Below are positions 1-32,370 of a stretch of DNA of 32,370 bases, one piece after another. A program made the position numbers and the translations under genes. Under the pieces are notes generated by a model. It saw only the letters and a list, made by a program, of their open reading frames with translations. It did not search any database and was not told the DNA's origin. Positions within the stretch are counted from its first letter, which is position 1; the number at the start of each line of letters is the position of its first letter. This stretch comes from a virus, in the IMG/VR virus record IMGVR_UViG_3300034759_000313, positions 1 through 32,370 of that record, one strand, 5' to 3'.

Positions 1-35
1 CCCTGTTACCTTACATCCTGTTAAGCGTGATTGCA
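1..35. repeat. 35-bp direct terminal repeat (left copy)
   Basis: Bases 1-35 are identical to bases 32336-32370. A coding sequence continues in frame across the join, so this is best read as the overlap left when a circular or circularly permuted genome is assembled, not as a biological terminal repeat. The unique length is 32,335 bp. Confidence 0.95.
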
Positions 36-434
36 GTTACGCCGCCGCCGATATCGCATATACAACCCGTGCAATACAACAGGTTGCCAACGTTGCAGTA
101 TTACATAACCAACGATTATGTGATTGTTATCCACCACCCATCGACAAGTCCGGTGGTCTGGGAGTATGTGGATGACCAATGGATTTCGCGTGTTAATCGC
201 GAGGCGGTGCCGATTATCGAATACAATGGCCGGCTGTATTCGCACAGATATCAAGTGGATGTCATTTCGCAGCGGGATTTTCTGATGCGGATTATTTATC
301 GATGGGGCACAAAATATAATTACTACGATTTTGCGATGCTGGCCCACAAGTGGAACGGCGACGGGCGGTTTACGCTCGAATCCGCAGCCGATATCTTAAG
401 CGGTGTATGGCTAATAAATGATTACGCAAATTGA
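1..434 (+). CDS. Secreted protein with dockerin-like C-terminus (3' part; gene spans the circular join)
   Basis: The real start is the ATG at 32332, which overlaps the stop of the preceding gene (ATGA). Read across the join, the protein is 145 aa. It begins with a short uncharged hydrophobic stretch (MTLLPYILLSVIA) that looks like a signal peptide without a basic N-region, so it is probably exported. The middle is unrecognised and rich in aromatic and beta-type residues. The last 40 residues contain YYDFAMLAHKW, then the calcium-loop-like NGDGRFTLESAADIL, then GVWL. This resembles the helix and loop of duplicated dockerin type I repeats in secreted planctomycete proteins, though the first calcium loop is degenerate. 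A GTG at 27 could start a shorter form but would remove the signal sequence. A second dockerin-like gene follows at 557. The dockerin call is inference from motif, and the molecular role is unknown. Confidence 0.85.
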   Translation, partial: LLPYILLSVIAVTPPPISHIQPVQYNRLPTLQYYITNDYVIVIHHPSTSPVVWEYVDDQWISRVNREAVPIIEYNGRLYSHRYQVDVISQRDFLMRIIYRWGTKYNYYDFAMLAHKWNGDGRFTLESAADILSGVWLINDYAN

Positions 435-455: not shown

Positions 456-560
456 ATGAGTTGGACAGGTTATGTCATCACGGACGTGGACAAGCCGGAC
501 GTCGGGCGCGGCGGTGTCGAGATGGCAGGGTTTATCGGCGGTCGCGGATTTATTGGATGA
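456..560 (+). CDS. Small ORF, 34 aa, coupled to the next gene
   Basis: The ATG at 456 follows an AGAAAGGA ribosome-binding site 11 bases upstream, and the stop overlaps the ATG at 557 as ATGA. It encodes a 34-residue peptide starting MSWTGYVITDVDKPDVGRGG with no recognised domain. The good ribosome site and the stop-start overlap suggest that translation of this peptide feeds translation of the secreted dockerin protein. It could be the remnant of a longer virion protein. Confidence 0.5.
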   Translation: MSWTGYVITDVDKPDVGRGGVEMAGFIGGRGFIG

Positions 561-937
561 TAAAAGTGAATGTGCTCTTTGCCATTGTGTTCAGTGTATC
601 AAGCGTCTGGCCGCATTATACGCGGTGGCTGGACGATGGGCGGCTCCGCGTCGTCCAGCCTGACCATTATCAAGAGTTTCGCGACGGCAAGGCATACGGG
701 TATCTGGAGTTTGGCGTCAACCGGACGCCACACGAATGGCTAACAGCGATTGCGGATAACTGGCTGCGGACGTGGGACACGACGCGGTGCTACAGTACGT
801 ATTACGGCGACATACACCGAGACGGGATTGTCAACTATAAGGACTTAGCCGTCCTTGCAAGACATTGGCCGAGACGTGAGCCAACTGGATTGGCAGCGGT
901 GGCTAAAGTAGCGCAAAATGAGTGGATGTGTAAATAA
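557..937 (+). CDS. Secreted protein with planctomycete-type dockerin repeat
   Basis: 126 aa. I chose the ATG at 557: it overlaps the preceding small ORF as ATGA and gives a good signal peptide (MIKVNVLFAIVFSVSSVWP), while the frame upstream of it (from 431) reads as an arginine-rich non-coding stretch. Residues ~80-107 contain GDIHRDGIVNYKDLAVLARHW: a calcium-loop pattern G-D-x-x-x-D-G-x-V-N followed by K-D-L-A-x-L-A-x-x-W. This closely resembles the dockerin type I signature abundant in secreted planctomycete proteins. Only one complete loop is present, whereas a classical dockerin has two. Known dockerins bind cohesins on cell surfaces or scaffolds. Here the protein might dock on the host surface after export, or be part of the virion. 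It sits among surface-binding genes. The function is inferred. Confidence 0.85.
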   Translation: MIKVNVLFAIVFSVSSVWPHYTRWLDDGRLRVVQPDHYQEFRDGKAYGYLEFGVNRTPHEWLTAIADNWLRTWDTTRCYSTYYGDIHRDGIVNYKDLAVLARHWPRREPTGLAAVAKVAQNEWMCK

Positions 938-12004: not shown

Positions 12005-12028
12005 TACGCTTTGAAAGGAAAACGAATT

Positions 12029-12886
12029 ATGAAATGGAAAGAGATCAAAAATTGGGAGCGTGTGGCCGGCTGGTACATTGAGCCGGCCACAGAGACGAAA
12101 TACTGTTACGTTGGCGACGACGTGCAGCTGGGCGACGATGTCTGGCTGGGCGCCGGCGTCTGGCTGGGAAACGACGTGCAACTGGGCGCCCGCGTCCGGC
12201 TGGGCGCCCGCGTCCGGCTGGGCAACGGCGTCCGGCTGGGCGACGACGTGCAACTGGGCGCCGGCGTCTGGCTGGGAAACGACGTGCAACTGGGCGCCAG
12301 CGTCCGGTTGGGCAACTTCGTCCGGCTGGGCGACTCCGTCCGGTTGGGCAACTCCGTCCGGCTGGGCGACGACGTGCAACTGGGCGCCGGCGTCTGGCTG
12401 GGCGACGGCGTCCGGCTGGGCCACGACGTCCGGCTGGGAAACGACGTGCAGCTGGGCGCCAGCGTCCGGCTGGGCGACGGCGTCCGGCTGGGCTCCCGCG
12501 TCTGTCTGGGAAACGACGTGCAGCTGGGCGCCCGCGTCCGGCTGGGAAACGACGTGCAGCTGGGCGCCAGCGTCCGGTTGGGCAACTCCGTCCGGCTGGG
12601 CGACGACGTTCGGCTGGGCGACTTCGTCCGGCTGGGCGACGACGTCCAAGTGCCCGTGTATCAGTCATGGTCGTTTGCCATCCACTGGCACGCTCCGGGG
12701 ACGATTCGAGCGGGTTGTATCATCGGGCCGTTTGACCGGTGCCTCGCCAACGTCCGGCAGGTTGCCGCCGAGCACGGCTATCCGCCGGACGAGCAGGAGC
12801 GATATGCGGGATTTATACGGCAAATTATTGAGTGGGAAAAGTTAATGGGCGATAAGGTCGGTTTCGCCCGACTCGATGCCACATAA
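12029..12886 (+). CDS. Hexapeptide-repeat (left-handed beta-helix) protein
   Basis: 285 aa. I chose the ATG at 12029 because GAAAGGAAAA lies just upstream; a TTG at 12011 would start inside that site. After ~29 N-terminal residues come 30 tandem hexapeptides of pattern x-x-V-x-L-G, enough for ten three-sided coils of a left-handed beta-helix. The C-terminal ~75 residues (FAIHWHAPGTIRAGCIIG, then a helical YPPDEQERYAGFIRQIIEW) resemble a cap seen in phage hexapeptide proteins. Classical members are acyltransferases, but the catalytic His and loops of those enzymes were not seen, and this repeat is unusually uniform. Structural or binding use is more likely than catalysis. The function is unknown. 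Confidence 0.85.
   Translation: MKWKEIKNWERVAGWYIEPATETKYCYVGDDVQLGDDVWLGAGVWLGNDVQLGARVRLGARVRLGNGVRLGDDVQLGAGVWLGNDVQLGASVRLGNFVRLGDSVRLGNSVRLGDDVQLGAGVWLGDGVRLGHDVRLGNDVQLGASVRLGDGVRLGSRVCLGNDVQLGARVRLGNDVQLGASVRLGNSVRLGDDVRLGDFVRLGDDVQVPVYQSWSFAIHWHAPGTIRAGCIIGPFDRCLANVRQVAAEHGYPPDEQERYAGFIRQIIEWEKLMGDKVGFARLDAT
12116..12655 (+). repeat. 30 tandem 18-bp units (coding minisatellite)
   Basis: Thirty consecutive 18-base units encode xxVxLG. Many are near-identical at the DNA level (for example GTCCGGCTGGGC and GACGACGTGCAACTGGGC recur), and higher-order blocks such as DDVQLG-AGVWLG-NDVQLG repeat. This points to recent unequal exchange or slippage. The other five frames are also open here because of the periodicity; those ORFs are shadows. 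Confidence 0.95.
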
Positions 12887-13024: not shown

Positions 13025-13477
13025 ATGAACAACATCATCGTTGTGAGTCGGCACAAAAATGCTATCCGGTTCATCGCTGACCAACTGATGGCAGCGATGA
13101 AACACAACCCCCGTATTATGCGGGGGCACCCCTACCTCACTTATTACGAGGCGGGGGAAGATTACATTGATTTTTTCACGGAGGAGGGTGGCTATATTGT
13201 TGAGTCTGTCCCTCTCTATCGATACGATGTTAACTCTGATATTGTCAAGGGCAAGGTAGTCATCGGCAATCTGCCGTTGTCCTTGGCCGCACAATGCGAC
13301 CGCTATTATGCCGTTGAGCACGACAGCGGACGAGCGGATGATGGCACGGAGCAATTTGTGCTACGGGCTTACGAGATTGAATATGTACCAGCGATTTGCC
13401 CGGATTGTTTTTCGGTTGACATCAAAATGCGCGAAAATGGCATTGAATGCCTCCTATGTGGTGCTTATTACGGTTAA
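13025..13477 (+). CDS. Csx16-like protein with C-terminal zinc ribbon (candidate ring nuclease / anti-CRISPR)
   Basis: 150 aa. The N-terminus MNNIIVVSRHKNAIRFI and the later VKGKVVIGNLPLSLAAQCDR match the two signature regions of the Csx16 (VVA1548) family: a first strand ending in [ST]RH followed by a helix, and G-x-x-V-x-G-x-L-P-x-x-L-A-A. Csx16 proteins accompany type III CRISPR systems and are thought to be ring nucleases that degrade cyclic oligoadenylate; diverged relatives occur in phages. Here an extra ~35 residues (about 26-75) separate the two regions, and the end adds CPDC ... CLLC, a zinc ribbon not usual for the family. The ATG at 13025 follows AAGGAG. A terminator follows the gene, so it may be transcribed alone. 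The fold call is from motif reading; activity is inferred. Confidence 0.85.
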   Translation: MNNIIVVSRHKNAIRFIADQLMAAMKHNPRIMRGHPYLTYYEAGEDYIDFFTEEGGYIVESVPLYRYDVNSDIVKGKVVIGNLPLSLAAQCDRYYAVEHDSGRADDGTEQFVLRAYEIEYVPAICPDCFSVDIKMRENGIECLLCGAYYG

Positions 13478-17832: not shown

Positions 17833-17851
17833 ATCGAAAGTGAGGTCAAAA

Positions 17852-18097
17852 ATGAACGAAACGAAAAAATGGTATCAAAGTACGAGTCTGTGGGGCGGCG
17901 TGGTCGCCTTGTTGGCGTCTCTGTTTTCCGCAATCAATATGATTTGGTCGGGAGCGGTTGATACCGAGGTCATTGAGCAATTGCAGAGCGAGCAATTGGT
18001 TGAGGCGATTGAGGTGGTCATCGCCTCGGCGGTGGCCGTGGTCGGGTCGATTGTCGCGATTATCGGCCGGCTTAAGGCAAAAGATAAAATTGAGTAA
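17852..18097 (+). CDS. Holin-like small membrane protein
   Basis: 81 aa from the ATG at 17852 (a GTG at 17840 would start within the ribosome site GTGAGGTC). TKKWYQSTSLWGGVVALLAS starts the first hydrophobic helix (about residues 11-32), followed by an acidic loop with AVDTEVIEQLQSE and a second helix (about 49-74) before the basic end RLKAKDKIE. This size, the W-Y-x-S-x-x-x-W-G-G start and the topology are those of a known phage holin-like family. Holins make the membrane holes that time lysis. The spanin pair follows, supporting a lysis module. Confidence 0.83.
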   Translation: MNETKKWYQSTSLWGGVVALLASLFSAINMIWSGAVDTEVIEQLQSEQLVEAIEVVIASAVAVVGSIVAIIGRLKAKDKIE

Positions 18098-18104
18098 TCG
18101 GCAG

Positions 18105-18161
18105 GTGCGGCGGCGAATCATCGGACGGAACGCAGGCTATATAAGTGCCTGACCGCCGCAC
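18105..18161 (+). promoter_or_regulatory. Inverted repeat with inner hairpin between holin and spanin genes
   Basis: The outer arms GTGCGGCGG (18105-18113) and CCGCCGCAC (18153-18161) pair perfectly. Inside, CAGGC (18132-18136) and GCCTG (18147-18151) form a second stem with a TATATAAGT loop. No T-run follows. It may modulate lysis-gene translation or stabilise mRNA. Confidence 0.5.
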
Positions 18162-18179
18162 AAAATTAAAGGTTATTAT

Positions 18180-18362
18180 ATGATTAAAAAAATACTGACA
18201 TTGTTGCTGGCGGTGGCCGAGATTGTGCTGCAATTTCTGCGGTTGCGGGATAAAACCAGACGGCAAAATGAAAAGGTAATCGATGATGCAAAAGATAAAA
18301 TTGACAATAAGGCCTCTGGCGCTGATGTGCATACTGTTATTGACGGGCTGCGCAAGCGTTAG
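18180..18362 (+). CDS. Candidate inner-membrane spanin (Rz-like)
   Basis: 60 aa. The N-terminal signal-anchor MIKKILTLLLAVAEIVLQF is followed by a charged helix (RLRDKTRRQNEKVIDDAKDK), as in i-spanins, which span the periplasm with an o-spanin and fuse the two membranes. It is shorter than lambda Rz. The lipoprotein gene at 18283 begins inside it in another frame, the classical nested Rz/Rz1 layout. The assignment depends on this layout. Confidence 0.75.
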   Translation: MIKKILTLLLAVAEIVLQFLRLRDKTRRQNEKVIDDAKDKIDNKASGADVHTVIDGLRKR

Positions 18363-18498
18363 GTTATATCCCATTGCGGATGACCATATTATCCAGATTG
18401 ATGCGGGACAGACCTTCACTGCCCCGCGGGACGGGTATTTTTTATCGAGTGAATATCTTAAGAGAGTTCTCGACGTGAAAATCGAAAAAGGATTTTGA
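18283..18498 (+). CDS. Candidate outer-membrane lipoprotein spanin (Rz1-like)
   Basis: 71 aa. It has a basic start and hydrophobic core ending in a lipobox L-T-G-C (Cys23), so the mature protein would be a 49-residue lipoprotein beginning CASVRLYPIADD. It starts inside the i-spanin gene (80-base overlap, different frame) with AAAAGGT before the double ATG. Together these form a two-component spanin for the last step of lysis of a Gram-negative-type envelope. The mature part lacks the proline richness of lambda Rz1. Confidence 0.8.
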   Translation: MMQKIKLTIRPLALMCILLLTGCASVRLYPIADDHIIQIDAGQTFTAPRDGYFLSSEYLKRVLDVKIEKGF

Positions 18499-19437: not shown

Positions 19438-20355
19438 ATGGAAAAATACCTGATAAAACCACAGGCGATTATCCAGGATAAACGGCTGACCTCCACAGAG
19501 TCCGATTATTTGTGTCTGATTTTCCAATTGTGCAATGCCAACGGTTGTACTGCGTCAAATCAGTATTTTGCCGATTATTTCGGCGTCAGCCGTGCACGGG
19601 CGACGCAGGTTATTGCCGAGTTAAGGAGAAAGGGTTTTATTACCACTCAAGAGCAAAAATCAGGCGGCAAAACCATTGAGCGGACAATCACAATCATCGA
19701 CCATAATAGTAAGGAATCCTTATCATCTAATGGTAAGGAATCCGAATTGAAACTATCTAATGGTAAGGAAATCTTACCATCTAATGGTAAGGAGTCCTTA
19801 TCAAACACCGGTTTTATGGCAAGAAAACCTTACCATCCAATGGTAAGAAATCCGAATTTTGATGGTAAGAAAACCTATAACCATACATTAGAAGAGACAA
19901 TAGATAATACTAAAGAAAAGAAAGAAAATAATAAAAAGAAAGAAAAGAAAGAAATTTCTCCCTTTTTTGCCGATGCCGAACCCTCTCAGGACGCGACCAT
20001 ATTGGACGATTGGGATGAGACAGAGGCAACGGAATATGTTTTTGTGTTGCAAGACGGAAGTCAATGGTATTTGCCTGATGAAAAATTCACCGAATACAAT
20101 AGAACATTTGTCGATATTGATGTAGCAGCGGAACTCCGCAAAGCGGCACAGTGGCTGCGGGATAATCCTGGTCGCCGAAAGACAGCACGAGGGATGCCGC
20201 GATTTTTGAGTGGTTGGCTTGGGCGCGTTGAATCGAAAAAACCCGCAAAGGCTTTGCGAGAGTTACCAGAGGCCAATTTCAGGGCCGTCTTCAACAAGTT
20301 AGGTGTACCGCGGGACATCCAGGACAAATTAGAGGCTGAAGGCTGGACAGTATGA
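19438..20355 (+). CDS. Replication initiator protein (lambda O-like organisation)
   Basis: 305 aa. Residues ~20-75 form a winged helix (TSTESDYLCLIFQL, then FADYFGVSRARATQVIAEL, then GFITTQEQ). Residues ~95-150 are encoded by DNA iterons and contain repeated SNGKE strings. A Lys/Glu-rich linker (NTKEKKENNKKKEKKE) follows. The C-terminal ~100 residues (LRKAAQWLRDNPGRRKTA, FLSGWLGRV) resemble the C-terminal part of phage replication proteins. A DNA-binding N-terminus, ori inside the gene, and an adjacent primase-helicase argue for an initiator that melts the origin. The ATG at 19438 follows GAAGGAATTAAGCG. The stop overlaps the next gene (ATGAC). Confidence 0.85.
   Translation: MEKYLIKPQAIIQDKRLTSTESDYLCLIFQLCNANGCTASNQYFADYFGVSRARATQVIAELRRKGFITTQEQKSGGKTIERTITIIDHNSKESLSSNGKESELKLSNGKEILPSNGKESLSNTGFMARKPYHPMVRNPNFDGKKTYNHTLEETIDNTKEKKENNKKKEKKEISPFFADAEPSQDATILDDWDETEATEYVFVLQDGSQWYLPDEKFTEYNRTFVDIDVAAELRKAAQWLRDNPGRRKTARGMPRFLSGWLGRVESKKPAKALRELPEANFRAVFNKLGVPRDIQDKLEAEGWTV
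19704..19965. repeat. Iteron array and AT/purine-rich stretch: candidate replication origin
   Basis: Seven imperfect 16-bp repeats of consensus TAATGGTAAGGAATCC start at 19704, 19728, 19758, 19782, 19814, 19838 and 19860. Copies at 19782 and 19838 are each preceded by an inverted half (CTTACCAT), giving palindromes 19773-19791 and 19829-19847. From about 19872 to 19965 the DNA is AT-rich and nearly all purine on the + strand, as in an unwinding element. The array lies inside the initiator gene, as lambda ori lies in O. Confidence 0.75.
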
Positions 20356-26363: not shown

Positions 26364-26602
26364 AGACGGAAGAATTTGAACAGATTGTTAAGGTCAAACC
26401 GGAGACGGCGTTAGCGGGTTTGATGGTCAAGCATATTGTGGCTCTTTATGATTTTATTCGCGAACACGAATCGGGCGTCAGGCCTTCTCGTTCTTATGCG
26501 TTTTGGGACGAGAAGATAGGGGATATACAAGCCTACCTATGTCTTCTTGACGCGATGGTTCTTGAGCGTTTGGCAAAACAAACAGATGGAACGATTCAGT
26601 AA
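26360..26602 (+). CDS. Small protein, copy 1 of a duplicated pair flanking the methyltransferase
   Basis: 80 aa. From residue 22 it reads MVKHIVALYDFIREHES, then WDEKIGDIQAYLCLLDAMVL, almost the same as the protein at 27352. The first 21 residues have no counterpart there. No known domain; it is helical and acidic. DNA similarity to 27352-27552 is also high. It overlaps the terminase stop (ATGA). Confidence 0.8.
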   Translation: MKTEEFEQIVKVKPETALAGLMVKHIVALYDFIREHESGVRPSRSYAFWDEKIGDIQAYLCLLDAMVLERLAKQTDGTIQ

Positions 26603-26624: not shown

Positions 26625-27365
26625 GTGAGAATGCTTGACCTATTTAGCGGTATCGGCGGCTTTGCATATGCCGCCAAGCAGATTTGGGGCGATGATTTGG
26701 AGATTGCCGCGTTTTGCGAAAGAGATGAATTTTGCCGAAAAGTGCTTAAAAAAAGATTTCCGAGCGTCCCGATAATCGACGACATACACGAGATGAATGG
26801 AAAAAATTATGGAACAGTTGACCTTATTTGCGGCGGATTCCCGTGTCAGCCAGTGTCTGTCGCCGGGAAACAAATGGGCCAGGCGGATGACCGCTGGCTC
26901 TGGCCTGAAATGTTCCGCGTTTGTCGAGACGCAAGGCCCCGTTGGGTCATTGCTGAAAATGTGCCTGGCCTCATTGCGATGGAACTCGACGGCGTGCTTG
27001 CTGACTTGGAAAGCGAAGGCTACCAGACAGGGACGCTTGTACTTCCGGCTTGCGGCGTCGGCGCCCCGCACCGACGAGAACGGGTTTGGATTGTGGGCCA
27101 CGCCGGCGGCGGCGGTAGCGCGGGAGTTTTACCCGACACCAACAACACAGGACGCCAAAAACAACGGCAGCAAAAGCCAGCAGGCGAGGAACACACCGCC
27201 GCTGAACGCTGTTGCCGGTGGCCCGCTGAACCCGAATTGGGTAGAGTGGCTTATGGGGTACCCCGCAGGGTGGACAGACTTAGAGCGTTAGGCAACGCCA
27301 TCGTACCGCAGGTGGCAATGGAGATATTCCGCGCAATACGGAAGATTGATTATGGTCAAGCATAG
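26625..27365 (+). CDS. Cytosine-5 DNA methyltransferase (Dcm-type)
   Basis: 246 aa. I prefer GTG 26625 because GAGGT lies 10 bases upstream; ATG 26631 is an alternative. Motif I is MLDLFSGIGGFAYA, motif IV GGFPCQPVSVAGK with the catalytic Cys of P-C-Q, motif VI AENVPGL, motif VIII RRERVWIVG, and motif X RVDRLRALGNAIVPQVA. It transfers methyl groups to cytosine C5, probably against host restriction. It is short: the target-recognition region between motifs VIII and X is only ~55 residues and Gly/Gln/Lys-rich. A second apparent gene occupies another frame here (26797-27291). Paralogous small genes flank it. Confidence 0.93.
   Translation: MRMLDLFSGIGGFAYAAKQIWGDDLEIAAFCERDEFCRKVLKKRFPSVPIIDDIHEMNGKNYGTVDLICGGFPCQPVSVAGKQMGQADDRWLWPEMFRVCRDARPRWVIAENVPGLIAMELDGVLADLESEGYQTGTLVLPACGVGAPHRRERVWIVGHAGGGGSAGVLPDTNNTGRQKQRQQKPAGEEHTAAERCCRWPAEPELGRVAYGVPRRVDRLRALGNAIVPQVAMEIFRAIRKIDYGQA
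26797..27291 (+). CDS. Overprinted ORF inside the methyltransferase gene (methyltransferase-associated family)
   Basis: 164 aa, +1 frame relative to the methyltransferase and wholly inside it. A start at ATG 26809 gives MEQLTLFAADSRVSQCLS; ATG 26797 adds four residues. The sequence is not shadow-like: RRMTAGSGLKCSAFV, SLRWNSTACLLTWKAKAT, GLWATPAAAVAREFYPTPTT, and WVEWLMGYPAGWTDLE are strings I know from phage proteins annotated next to, or as part of, cytosine methyltransferases. Both frames therefore look conserved. It could assist target recognition, or be a cryptic second product. A strong ribosome site is lacking. Confidence 0.6.
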   Translation: MEKIMEQLTLFAADSRVSQCLSPGNKWARRMTAGSGLKCSAFVETQGPVGSLLKMCLASLRWNSTACLLTWKAKATRQGRLYFRLAASAPRTDENGFGLWATPAAAVAREFYPTPTTQDAKNNGSKSQQARNTPPLNAVAGGPLNPNWVEWLMGYPAGWTDLER

Positions 27366-27552
27366 TGTAGCGTTGTATGATTTTATTCGCGAGCACGAGG
27401 CGGACGATAAACCCTATGCGTCTCTATGCGACACTATGCGGCCCTATATATACTGGGATGAGAAAATCGGAGACATACAAGCCTACTTGTGTCTTTTAGA
27501 CGCAATGATTCTTGAGCGTTTTGCAAAACAAAAAGACGAAACGACATCGTAA
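27352..27552 (+). CDS. Small protein, copy 2 of the duplicated pair
   Basis: 66 aa from ATG 27352, which lies inside the last codons of the methyltransferase gene. It reads MVKHSVALYDFIREHEAD, then WDEKIGDIQAYLCLLDAMIL, paralogous to 26360-26602. It lacks copy 1's N-terminal extension and has extra residues (~20-35) before the conserved WDEK. The function is unknown. Confidence 0.78.
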   Translation: MVKHSVALYDFIREHEADDKPYASLCDTMRPYIYWDEKIGDIQAYLCLLDAMILERFAKQKDETTS

Positions 27553-28074: not shown

Positions 28075-29490
28075 ATGGCGAGTCTGCTTAAAAAATTAAA
28101 GCGACTTTCCGCGGCCCCTAAAAAACGACATCTCCGCCGTCTGCTTGCGAAATACGACGCCGCACAAACCACCATCGATAATATCCGCCATTGGGCGATG
28201 GCCGACTCCCTGTCAGCGGACGCGGCAGCCAGCAGCGATGTCCGCAAAAAAATACGTGAGCGGGCACGTTACGAGGTGGCCAATAACTCTTACGCCAAGG
28301 GTATCACGTTAACCCTGGCTGATTATTGTGTGGGTACCGGCCCTCGTCTGCAGTTATTGACGAGTGATAATGAGCTCAATAATGCCGTTGAATCGGAATT
28401 TGAGGCCTGGACACATCGCGTCAATCTGCCTGCAAAATTGCGGACAATGCGGACGGCAAAACTGACAGATGGCGAGGCTTTTGCCTTGTTGGTCGGCAAT
28501 CCAAAACTCACGGGCCTCATTAAACTGGATGTGGCATTGGTTGAGGCTGACCGTGTAACAACCCCATCACTTAATGTTCTACCCTCGTCGACAGACATCG
28601 ACGGCATTACCCTTGACCGATTTGGCAATCCGATAGGCTACACCGTACTCAATTATCACCCAGGCGATATTTATGTGTCTGATAACGTGGCACAATATAT
28701 CACGGCAGATTCTGTTATCCATTGGTTCCGCGTCGACAGGCCTGGCCAGCATCGGGGGATTCCGGAGATTGCACCGGCGCTGCCGCTGTTTGCACAACTC
28801 CGCCGATATACCCTTGCAGTATTGGCCGCCGCAGAAACCGCCGCGGAGATTTCCTCTGTGCTCTATGCAGACCCGCCCGCTGATGGTGAGATTGCGGCAC
28901 TGGAGCCGATGGACGTCGTTGAGCTGGAAAGACGGATGACGACCGTAATGCCGGAAGGCTGGAAGCTGGGGCAGCTCAAGGCGGAGCAGCCGACAACGAC
29001 CTACTCGGAATTCAAGCGCGAGTTGCTGAACGAAATCGCGCGGTGCTTTAATATGCCGCTGAATATCGCGCTCTGTAATTCGTCGGGGTATAACTATGCC
29101 AGCGGCCGGCTTGACCATCAAACATTTTTCCGGTCGATACGCGTTGAGCAAGCCGACATGTCGGCTGTGGTGCTTGATAAGATTCTGGAGGCGTGGGTCA
29201 ACGAGGCGATGTTGACAACGGAATTTGCGGCCTTGCGGAATCTGCGGGCCTTGCCGCACCAGTGGTTTTTCGACGGCAACGAGCACGTCGACCCCGCCAA
29301 AGAGGCCAACGCACAACAGATACGCCTTAACTCCAATACGACAACCCTTGCGGCCGAATATGCACGCCAGGGCAAGGACTGGGAAACGGAATTATATCAG
29401 CGTGCGAAAGAAAAACAGCTGATGAAAAAATTGGGATTAACGACGGAAACGAAATCCGTACTGATTGATGAGGATGAAAATGAAGAATAA
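28075..29490 (+). CDS. Portal protein (lambda gpB family)
   Basis: 471 aa. YEVANNSYAKGITLTLADYCVG without its last letters is the usual N-terminal region of the lambda portal family: EVANNSYAKGITLTLADY, VGTGPRLQ, and FEAWTHRVNLPA. Later come VIHWFRVDRPGQHRGIPEI, EFKRELLNEIARCFNMPLNI and SGYNYASGRLDHQTFFR, all characteristic. It forms the dodecameric DNA gate at the head vertex. The length is near the family norm. The end overlaps the protease-capsid gene. Confidence 0.95.
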   Translation: MASLLKKLKRLSAAPKKRHLRRLLAKYDAAQTTIDNIRHWAMADSLSADAAASSDVRKKIRERARYEVANNSYAKGITLTLADYCVGTGPRLQLLTSDNELNNAVESEFEAWTHRVNLPAKLRTMRTAKLTDGEAFALLVGNPKLTGLIKLDVALVEADRVTTPSLNVLPSSTDIDGITLDRFGNPIGYTVLNYHPGDIYVSDNVAQYITADSVIHWFRVDRPGQHRGIPEIAPALPLFAQLRRYTLAVLAAAETAAEISSVLYADPPADGEIAALEPMDVVELERRMTTVMPEGWKLGQLKAEQPTTTYSEFKRELLNEIARCFNMPLNIALCNSSGYNYASGRLDHQTFFRSIRVEQADMSAVVLDKILEAWVNEAMLTTEFAALRNLRALPHQWFFDGNEHVDPAKEANAQQIRLNSNTTTLAAEYARQGKDWETELYQRAKEKQLMKKLGLTTETKSVLIDEDENEE

Positions 29491-31426
29491 GCAAATCTCT
29501 TTTAATTTTTTGTGCCCGCTGACCATTGAGGCGGCGGCGGATAACAAAAAACTACCGCGCTTTTCGATGGTCGCCTATACGGGCGGTGCGATGCAGGTGG
29601 GCTATTTTGATTATCCGGTTGTTGTTGATTTAGAGGGCCTGCAAATCGACCGGCAAACCTTGCCCGTCCGATTAGACCACGACTCACGGCAAGGGGTAGG
29701 GCATACGACACGCGTTGTGATTGATGACAATCAATTGCTGGCCGAGGGCCTTATCTCTCGCGATACGAGCTGGGCCAGAGATGTCGCCAACAGCGGCAGT
29801 CAGGGCTTTCCGTGGCAGGCCAGCATCGGGGCAGAGGTTATCAATGAGGAGTTTGTGCCGAGCGGTTCGGCGGCGAACGCCAACGGACAAACCTTTGACG
29901 GCCCTGTCTATATTGTCCGCGCATCAACGCTCAAGGAAATTAGCTTTGTTGATGTCGGGGCTGACTCAAATACCAGTGCAAAGGTCGCGGCAAAACAAGC
30001 GGCTGAAAAAAACACGAAAAATATACTACTCAAGGAAACTGAAAAAATGAAAAAGACAGACGACGAAAAAGAAAAACAAACTGTTGTGCCTGAGACGCTG
30101 CAGGCCAGCGCACCGGATGGTGATGAGGTGGTCAAGCGTATCCGACAACGCGCGGAAGATGAAGTCCGGCGTATTGCAGCCATCCAGGCGGCCTGTGGCG
30201 GCAAGCACGCCGACATCGAGGCCAAGGCTATCAGTGAGGGATGGGATGCGACACGCTGCGAGCTGGAGGTGCTGCGCGCCTCTCGTCCCGCGGCACCGGC
30301 GGTGCAGACACCTCCGCAGACAACCAGCCCAAAGGTATTTGAGGCGGTCGCCCTGATGGCTTCCGGCGGCATCCGCGATGACAGGCTGCAGACGTTGTAT
30401 GACGCGCAGACCCTTGAGGCCGCGGACAAATTGCGAGGTATCGGTATCCAGGAATTTTGCGAGCGAATTAGCGGCGCGCAGAATTTGCCGCGATTCCGCC
30501 GCGACGCGTCAGGCTGGCTGCAGGCGGCGTTTTCAACGGCCTCTCTGCCTGGTATCCTGTCAAATGTGGCCAACAAAATGCTGCTGGAAGGGTATAATTA
30601 CGTTGAGGACGCCTGGCGAAGAGTCTGCAAGATTGCCAGTGTCAACGATTTCAAAGAGCACACCCGCTACCGGATGACCGGCGATTTTGCATTTGAAAAA
30701 GTCGGCAACGGCGGCGAGATTAAACACGGAAAACTCGACGAATTGAGTTATGGTCAGAAGGCCGACACGCACGGCATTATGTTTGCTCTGACGCGCCAGA
30801 TGATTATCAATGATGACCTCGGCGCGTTTGCGGATATTCCGCGACAAATCGGGATGGGCGCTGCCGAGGCGATTGCAGAGGCGGTCTGGAGTCTGCTGTT
30901 GTCCAATCCCAATAACTTTTTCTCGACCGCGCACAAAAACTATAAAGATGGTGCAGACACGGCATTAAGCATTGATGGCTTGACGCTGGCGGAAATCACA
31001 TTTGGCGAACAGACAAAACCAAATGGAAAACCGCTTGGAATACCCGCCTCGATTCTGTTGGTGCCCATCGCTCTGAAAACGGTGGCCGAAACCTTGATGA
31101 CCTCGACAATGGTCAACGAGACGACAACCACCGGAAAGCCCAAGCCGGCGGACAATCCGCATCGCGGCAAATACGATGTAGTCTCCAGCGTTTATCTGTC
31201 TAACACTTTGTTTGCGGGGTCCAGTTCAAAGGCGTGGTATCTGTTCGCCGACCCGAACCGATTGCCGGCGATTGAAGTGGCATTCCTCAACGGCGTTGAC
31301 CGGCCGACGGTGGAGAATACCGACGCAGACTTTTCGACGCTGGGCATTCAGTTCCGTGGCTATATCGATTTTGGCGTGCGGGAGCAGGATTATCGCGGCG
31401 CGCTGAAAATGAAGGGCGAAGCGTAA
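29480..31426 (+). CDS. Prohead protease / scaffold / major capsid fusion protein
   Basis: 648 aa from ATG 29480 (GAGGA 6-10 bases upstream; ATGs at 29468 and 29474 are alternatives). Residues ~1-170 are a U35-type prohead protease: RLDHDSRQGVGHT (catalytic His67), FPWQASIGAEV (Ser115), LKEISFVDVGAD. Residues ~170-330 are charged and helical, like a scaffold. Residues ~340-648 match the Mu gpT-type HK97-fold capsid family (SLPGILSNVANKMLLEGYN, FALTRQMIINDDLGAF, LGIPASILLVPIAL). Maturation should cut protease and scaffold away. An internal ATG at 30047 with AAGGA upstream could give a scaffold-capsid form. Confidence 0.93.
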   Translation: MKNKQISFNFLCPLTIEAAADNKKLPRFSMVAYTGGAMQVGYFDYPVVVDLEGLQIDRQTLPVRLDHDSRQGVGHTTRVVIDDNQLLAEGLISRDTSWARDVANSGSQGFPWQASIGAEVINEEFVPSGSAANANGQTFDGPVYIVRASTLKEISFVDVGADSNTSAKVAAKQAAEKNTKNILLKETEKMKKTDDEKEKQTVVPETLQASAPDGDEVVKRIRQRAEDEVRRIAAIQAACGGKHADIEAKAISEGWDATRCELEVLRASRPAAPAVQTPPQTTSPKVFEAVALMASGGIRDDRLQTLYDAQTLEAADKLRGIGIQEFCERISGAQNLPRFRRDASGWLQAAFSTASLPGILSNVANKMLLEGYNYVEDAWRRVCKIASVNDFKEHTRYRMTGDFAFEKVGNGGEIKHGKLDELSYGQKADTHGIMFALTRQMIINDDLGAFADIPRQIGMGAAEAIAEAVWSLLLSNPNNFFSTAHKNYKDGADTALSIDGLTLAEITFGEQTKPNGKPLGIPASILLVPIALKTVAETLMTSTMVNETTTTGKPKPADNPHRGKYDVVSSVYLSNTLFAGSSSKAWYLFADPNRLPAIEVAFLNGVDRPTVENTDADFSTLGIQFRGYIDFGVREQDYRGALKMKGEA

Positions 31427-32024: not shown

Positions 32025-32335
32025 CAATGGCAAGCAGCGGCTATCAAATCGACCGTAAAGAATTCAGCGACGCGCTGGAACGGATTAATGCAAAACTGGA
32101 CGGTGTGAAAGAGGATGTCTCGTCCGTTAAGGAAGAAATGGTTGCGATTAAAACAACACTAAAATTAACCCCCATCCCCAAACAGCCGTGTCCGCAGCTG
32201 GAAAAACATCTTGAACTGCACGAGTCGATTAAAATGATTTGGCTGCGTGCGGTGGTCAGTTCCGTTGTCAGTTCCGTGGCGGCATCGGTCACCGCTGCAT
32301 TAACGGCGATATGGTTTTTTTTGCGAGACAAATGA
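32021..32335 (+). CDS. Coiled-coil protein with C-terminal membrane segment
   Basis: 104 aa. Residues ~10-45 are a heptad-type coiled coil (ALERINAKLDGVKEDVSSVK and onward). Residues ~75-100 are a hydrophobic helix (VVSSVVSSVAASVTAALTAI) ending WFFLRDK. This topology resembles XhlA-type lysis proteins or small holin-like proteins, but could be a membrane-anchored virion accessory. It overlaps both neighbours by ATGA, so it is co-translated with the secreted dockerin-like gene across the join. Confidence 0.8.
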   Translation: MTMASSGYQIDRKEFSDALERINAKLDGVKEDVSSVKEEMVAIKTTLKLTPIPKQPCPQLEKHLELHESIKMIWLRAVVSSVVSSVAASVTAALTAIWFFLRDK

Positions 32336-32370
32336 CCCTGTTACCTTACATCCTGTTAAGCGTGATTGCA
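32332..32370 (+). CDS. Start of the secreted dockerin-like protein that continues at position 1
   Basis: ATG 32332 overlaps the stop of the coiled-coil gene (ATGA). It gives MTLLPYILLSVIA, the signal peptide of the protein at 1-434. Bases 32336-32370 repeat 1-35. Confidence 0.9.
   Translation, partial: MTLLPYILLSVIA
32336..32370. repeat. 35-bp direct terminal repeat (right copy)
   Basis: Identical to bases 1-35; see the left copy. Confidence 0.95.

Follow-up and report, generated by a model that had tools for sequence, protein, structure and literature searches.

The window analyzed here, a 32,370-nucleotide stretch of DNA, raises the question of why a phage would carry, among its late structural genes, small proteins with hydrophobic N-termini and C-termini that resemble the dockerins of its host's secreted proteins, and what such proteins might do for the infected cell or for the phage. 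The genome is a phage circle of 32,335 bp, which the window presents as a linear record with a 35-bp overlap (1-35 = 32336-32370). Recognizable phage genes include those for a capsid with protease, portal, terminase, head-tail joining and tape-measure proteins. Two genes are considered below, p1, which attracted the initial annotation, and p2, located 120 bp downstream and overlooked at that time.

Genome organization and host

The capsid protein exhibits mostly 60-73% identity to proteins of Phycisphaerae and other planctomycete genomes, and the host is therefore most likely a Phycisphaerae planctomycete. Capsid relatives are encoded on 380 viral contig stretches. Each search for related phages contributed its 80 top-scoring capsid matches, and the set of relatives is biased accordingly. 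One planctomycete chromosome, CP087563.1, carries an unusual prophage load, with 12 separate loci that contain capsid relatives (L095-L097, L099, L101-L103, L112, L115, L118, L120, L135).

The proposal that p1 spans the genome join is borne out, as the gene runs from 32332 to 434 across the terminal overlap. Its assignment to the late operon also stands: p1 lies on the + strand, after the capsid gene and before the head-completion, tail-tube and tape-measure genes. The p1 start ATG overlaps the TGA stop of the preceding gene (ATGA), which encodes a coiled coil and a transmembrane segment, and which recurs as a gene type upstream of the equivalent spot throughout the phage family; a Pfam search returned no family match for it. 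The variable genes that follow p2 have no family match and no homologue among the fetched relatives, and the 272-residue product appears LamG/lectin-like by eye. The lysis cassette (17840-18498) is located far from the tail genes.

Features of the window discussed in the text.
Feature	Position	Strand	Remarks
Capsid gene	29465-31426		Upstream of p1
Gene encoding a coiled coil and a C-terminal transmembrane segment	32021..32335	+	Upstream of p1
p1, 145 aa	ATG 32332-32334, across the join, remainder 1..434, stop 432-434	+	
p1 dockerin-like segment, NYYDFAMLAHKW and NGDGRFTLESAADILSGVWLIN	319..416 (approximate limits)	+	Profile scores
34-aa ORF between p1 and p2	456..560	+	ATGA-coupled to p2; direct reading
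p2, 126 aa	557-937	+	ATGA-coupled to the 34-aa ORF
p2 calcium loop and helix, nearly complete, GDIHRDGIVNYKDLAVLARHW	803..871	+	
Variable genes, 136, 272 and 460 aa	950..3559	+	From p2 to the head-tail joining gene
Holin-like gene	17840-18097		Assigned mainly by anatomy
Rz-like gene overlapping an Rz1-like lipoprotein gene	18180-18498		Assigned mainly by anatomy; weak spanin match

Several other features of the window were recorded. A gene of 18-bp repeats (24 copies) in the early region, at 12011-12886, encodes a hexapeptide-repeat left-handed β-helix protein (Pfam Hexapep, E 7.8e-39). Five repeat copies, 24-32 bp apart, lie at 19704-19853 within an O-like replication-initiation gene (19438-20355) and resemble the iterons of the replication origin in lambda O. 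On either side of a C5 cytosine methyltransferase gene lies a copy of a 55-bp stretch (26423-26477 and 27352-27406, 84% repeated), an arrangement that insertion of the gene into its neighbor, or duplication together with it, might leave. The phage protein encoded at 13025-13477 shows a weak, below cut-off match to Cas_VVA1548 (PF09652, E 8.7e-5).

N-terminal leaders and dockerin-like C-termini

The p1 sequence comprises a hydrophobic N-terminus, a β-rich body and a degenerate dockerin-like C-terminus (approximately residues 104-140). The N-terminus, MTLLPYILLSVIAV, reaches its best 11-residue mean hydropathy of 2.45 at residue 4, in keeping with the signal peptide that had been assigned to it, but reading of the sequence revealed no lysine or arginine ahead of the hydrophobic stretch, and the signal peptide is therefore possible rather than clear. 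In p2, a signal-like N-terminal segment (Lys3, hydrophobic residues 4-16) is followed by a small body and a dockerin-like C-terminus. Because a lysine precedes the hydrophobic stretch in p2 whereas p1 lacks a basic residue, export appears plausible in the case of p2 but no more than possible in that of p1.

Type I dockerins comprise two tandem loop-helix repeats of ~ 22 residues, with calcium ligands at loop positions 1, 3, 5, 9 and 12. The Pfam family PF00404 (Dockerin_1) has a gathering cut-off of 22.9 bits, which neither p1 nor p2 passes. Resemblance was also judged with a profile of the single loop-helix motif, built without reference to the phage from 57 host dockerin motif copies; its seeds were dockerins picked by Pfam alone from planctomycete genomes in which relatives of the phage occur. 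On this profile p2 has the highest score and p1 the next highest of 687 six-frame ORFs, which were read from an extended circle in which each was counted twice.

The better copy is that of p2, which scores 20.9 bits on the host motif profile, whereas the highest score among 20,000 shuffles is 13.1. Its loop, D-I-H-R-D-G-I-V-N-Y-K-D, keeps ligand positions 1, 5, 9 and 12 (Asp at 1, 5 and 12, Asn at 9) and has His at position 3. One repeat is nearly full, and the helix preceding it matches the tail of the host repeat 1. Against Dockerin_1, p2 scores 13.1 bits (E 0.12), or 13.9 bits (E 0.0022) in a one-record search. The 43.7 bits obtained on a two-repeat profile are partly circular, as some seeds of that profile were found with p2. 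Of the 17 distinct PDB sequence matches to p2 up to E 5, 15 are dockerins, cellulosomal enzymes or dockerin-like proteins, the best with E 0.0057. Furthermore, 10 of 248 Phycisphaerae genomes encode proteins whose dockerins are matched by p2; most of these dockerins form the very end of a secreted-type protein, and the match sometimes includes the end of the preceding repeat. The best host match, to the C-terminal dockerin of a Phycisphaerae protein, has 71% identity over 21 residues.

The dockerin-like C-terminus ascribed to p1 is more degenerate. A Pfam Dockerin_1 HMM search, the check proposed in the initial annotation, gave no match to p1 even at E 5. Loop 1 is essentially lost, two helices are present in the dockerin-like region, and loop 2 (KWNGDGRFTLES, K-W-N-G-D-G-R-F-T-L-E-S) no longer has Asp at positions 1 and 12. 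Nevertheless, p1 scores 12.2 bits on the host motif profile, equalled by 0 of 20,000 shuffles of p1, and 9.4 bits on the two-repeat profile, equalled by 3 of 20,000. The pattern NYxDxAxLAxxW is common to p1 and p2. Thus, judged by its sequence, the resemblance of p1 to dockerins is real but degenerate. Based on the profile and shuffle scores, the PDB matches and the matches to host C-terminal dockerins, we take the C-terminus of p2 to be a planctomycete dockerin in reduced form, and that of p1 to be one that has degenerated further.

AlphaFold2 models computed without an alignment are of low confidence for both proteins (mean pLDDT 49.1 for p1, which shows seven strands then three helices, and 46.9 for p2), and place helices where they are expected of a dockerin. 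A Foldseek search with the low-confidence p1 model returned nothing at E ≤ 0.001. Two candidate relationships were discarded: a match of p1 in the host genome L183 (E 0.002) coincides with no dockerin and looks like chance, and a homology between the p1 and p2 bodies, suspected by eye, is unsupported, as its score is matched by 2,556 of 3,000 shuffles.

Equivalent loci in related phages and host partners

A dockerin-like C-terminus of planctomycete type behind a hydrophobic leader, encoded by a late phage gene, is not confined to the window, as two related phages, L263 and L067, have an equivalent gene in the equivalent position. Judged by the tail tube protein (77% identity), L263 is the phage nearest to that of the window. 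Its ORF upstream of a variable adhesin-like gene ends in a p2-like C-terminus (Pfam dockerin E 0.13), and in comparison with the C-terminal half of p2, 0 of 3,000 shuffles reach the score, both for the dockerin and for the helix before it. The N-terminus of this ORF is probably cut off, because the ORF runs to the contig end. In L067, a gene flanked by the tail-completion gene and the variable adhesin-like gene encodes a protein of 201 residues, in which a basic n-region and hydrophobic leader are combined with a dockerin of two repeats that exceeds the PF00404 cut-off (25.2 bits in one search, 27 in another). This protein scores 22.4 bits on the host motif profile, equalled by 0 of 20,000 shuffles.

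The dockerin motif at this site was found in only three phages of the family, and the trait is rare, because only 1 of 39 relative records searched has a Pfam-level dockerin. A tblastn search of viral contigs with p1, p2 and the L067 protein recovered no relatives but L067 itself, the alignment of p2 and L263 used as a query yielded no further relatives, and a search of 50,697 phage records with the dockerin of L067 gave no match. Signal-peptide proteins are flagged within the capsid-to-tube interval of at least five loci, L012, L030, L067, L109 and L268, among 75 loci with a complete interval. Those of L012, L030, L109 and L268 differ from p1 and p2, and the L030 protein has a lipobox (LIAGC). 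Exported proteins of varying sequence, as predicted from their signal peptides, therefore appear to recur within this interval. The proteins encoded at L012 12976-13749 and L109 15816-16544 look similar to each other and share a calcium-loop-like D-x-N-G-N-G-R motif. At L136 12039-12656, an ORF directly 3' of the capsid gene contains a dockerin-like loop, GDRNLDGTVDAADLGVLL, without a signal peptide.

Host genomes that carry relatives of the phage all contain dockerins (10 of 10 checked, 1 to 43 matches each). The cohesin-like host receptors invoked in the initial annotation found no support: Pfam cohesin was detected in 0 of these 10 genomes, and in 26 of 198 genomes of the class Phycisphaerae. 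Dockerins are thus abundant in these planctomycetes, yet dockerin-bearing genomes can be without a recognizable cohesin. If the phage uses this tag, the p2 protein, or its fuller L067 version, would offer a small expressible bait for pulling out the host dockerin partner.

Proposed role and comparison with known systems

To judge by the sequences, p1 and p2 may serve to decorate the infected cell at its surface. Both proteins would be made late and probably exported through Sec. Their C-termini, reduced dockerins of the planctomycete type and hence the same tag that host secreted proteins carry, would retain them at the cell envelope via whatever partner the host uses. There they would most likely mask or alter the phage receptor and so exclude superinfecting phages; masking would also keep new virions off cell debris. 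We infer export, anchoring and receptor masking, and superinfection exclusion is plausible from the anatomy of the locus and from analogy. Retention in the envelope by a host-type dockerin, with receptor masking or superinfection exclusion, is favored tentatively, with a probability that falls somewhat short of even. It is favored because the motif exceeds chance in both p1 and p2, is of host type and recurs at the equivalent site, and because different signal-peptide proteins fill the interval in L012, L030, L109 and L268. It is weakened because p1 and p2 score below the Pfam cut-off, p1 lacks most calcium ligands and a basic residue in its leader, the motif is seen in only three phages, and no cohesin is seen in the 10 host genomes. 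Whether planctomycete phages hijack host dockerin surface display, with small dockerin-tagged exports anchored by the envelope machinery of the host and blocking the receptor to further phages, is more doubtful, and we consider it unlikely. A phage that did make use of the tag would be coating its host cell in an unusual manner.

Four other explanations were weighed. The proteins may be host-derived cargo, dockerin-tagged exports, unrelated to adsorption, by which the secretome of an infected or lysogenic host would be partly changed or substituted. The host-type tag is consistent with this, and the larger unrelated exported proteins of L012 and L109 make the interval look like a general cargo site; however, p1 and p2 are very small, show no enzymatic domain match and lie within a late structural operon, and no integrase was noticed in the phage. 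We regard cargo as rather unlikely, though deserving of serious consideration. Placement between capsid and tail genes, together with the dockerin-like loop in the leaderless ORF right after the L136 capsid gene, would suit minor head or tail proteins in which the dockerin-like end serves as an adhesive or structural EF-hand. As the signal-like N-termini of p2 and of the L067 protein would remove these proteins from the cytoplasm, where virions are assembled, a virion component is improbable.

A periplasmic or outer-membrane protein that aids cell breakage is conceivable given the ATGA coupling of p1 to the coiled-coil/transmembrane gene, to which such an accessory would be tied, but that gene type is also present in relatives without p1 and p2. 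A lysis role is unlikely because a separate holin-like gene and an Rz/Rz1-like pair are found at 17840-18498; lysis was dropped as the main reading on account of their location elsewhere, and an accessory part in it has only a slim chance. Equally slim is the chance that the dockerin ends are decaying, non-functional copies of captured host sequence. The loss of loop 1 and of two loop 2 ligand positions in p1, and the failure of both proteins to reach the Pfam cut-off, would fit such decay, but the operon is packed, the ORFs of p1 and p2 within it are unbroken and show translational coupling, p2 still has Asp 1, 5 and 12 together with Asn 9, and L263 retains a comparable motif.

The p1 and p2 proteins share with the type I dockerin proteins secreted by Phycisphaerae (PF00404) the C-terminal pattern G-D-x-x-x-D-G-x-V-N-x-x-D-L-A-x-L-A-x-x-W and a signal-like N-terminus, and differ in being phage-borne, in having one recognizable loop each and in scoring under the Pfam cut-off. 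A cohesin/dockerin 'planctosome' has been proposed from the genomes of freshwater planctomycetes as a host peptidase complex with cohesins (PMC6461901). It likewise involves non-cellulosomal dockerins in Planctomycetes, whereas here the protein belongs to a phage and the related host genomes checked have no cohesin. The open-licence literature yielded no account of phages that encode a family of exported dockerin proteins. A BLASTP match to dockerin type I proteins was reported for gene 40 of vibriophage VvAW1 (PMC3558961), also a phage gene with dockerin type I resemblance; that case is a single BLASTP remark on a Vibrio podophage and not an exported late-operon protein family. A tail protein of an E. 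coli phage was likened to a cellulosome carbohydrate-binding module named after dockerin. The closest likeness of logic is to Llp of T5 and to Rtp45, small exported phage lipoproteins for which receptor masking and superinfection exclusion are established (PMC9586334, PMC12685063). By direct reading of the sequences, neither p1 nor p2 has a lipobox cysteine in its N-terminal region. Like Llp and Rtp45, p1 and p2 are small, putatively exported phage proteins proposed to block a receptor; unlike them, they would use a dockerin in place of the lipid anchor.
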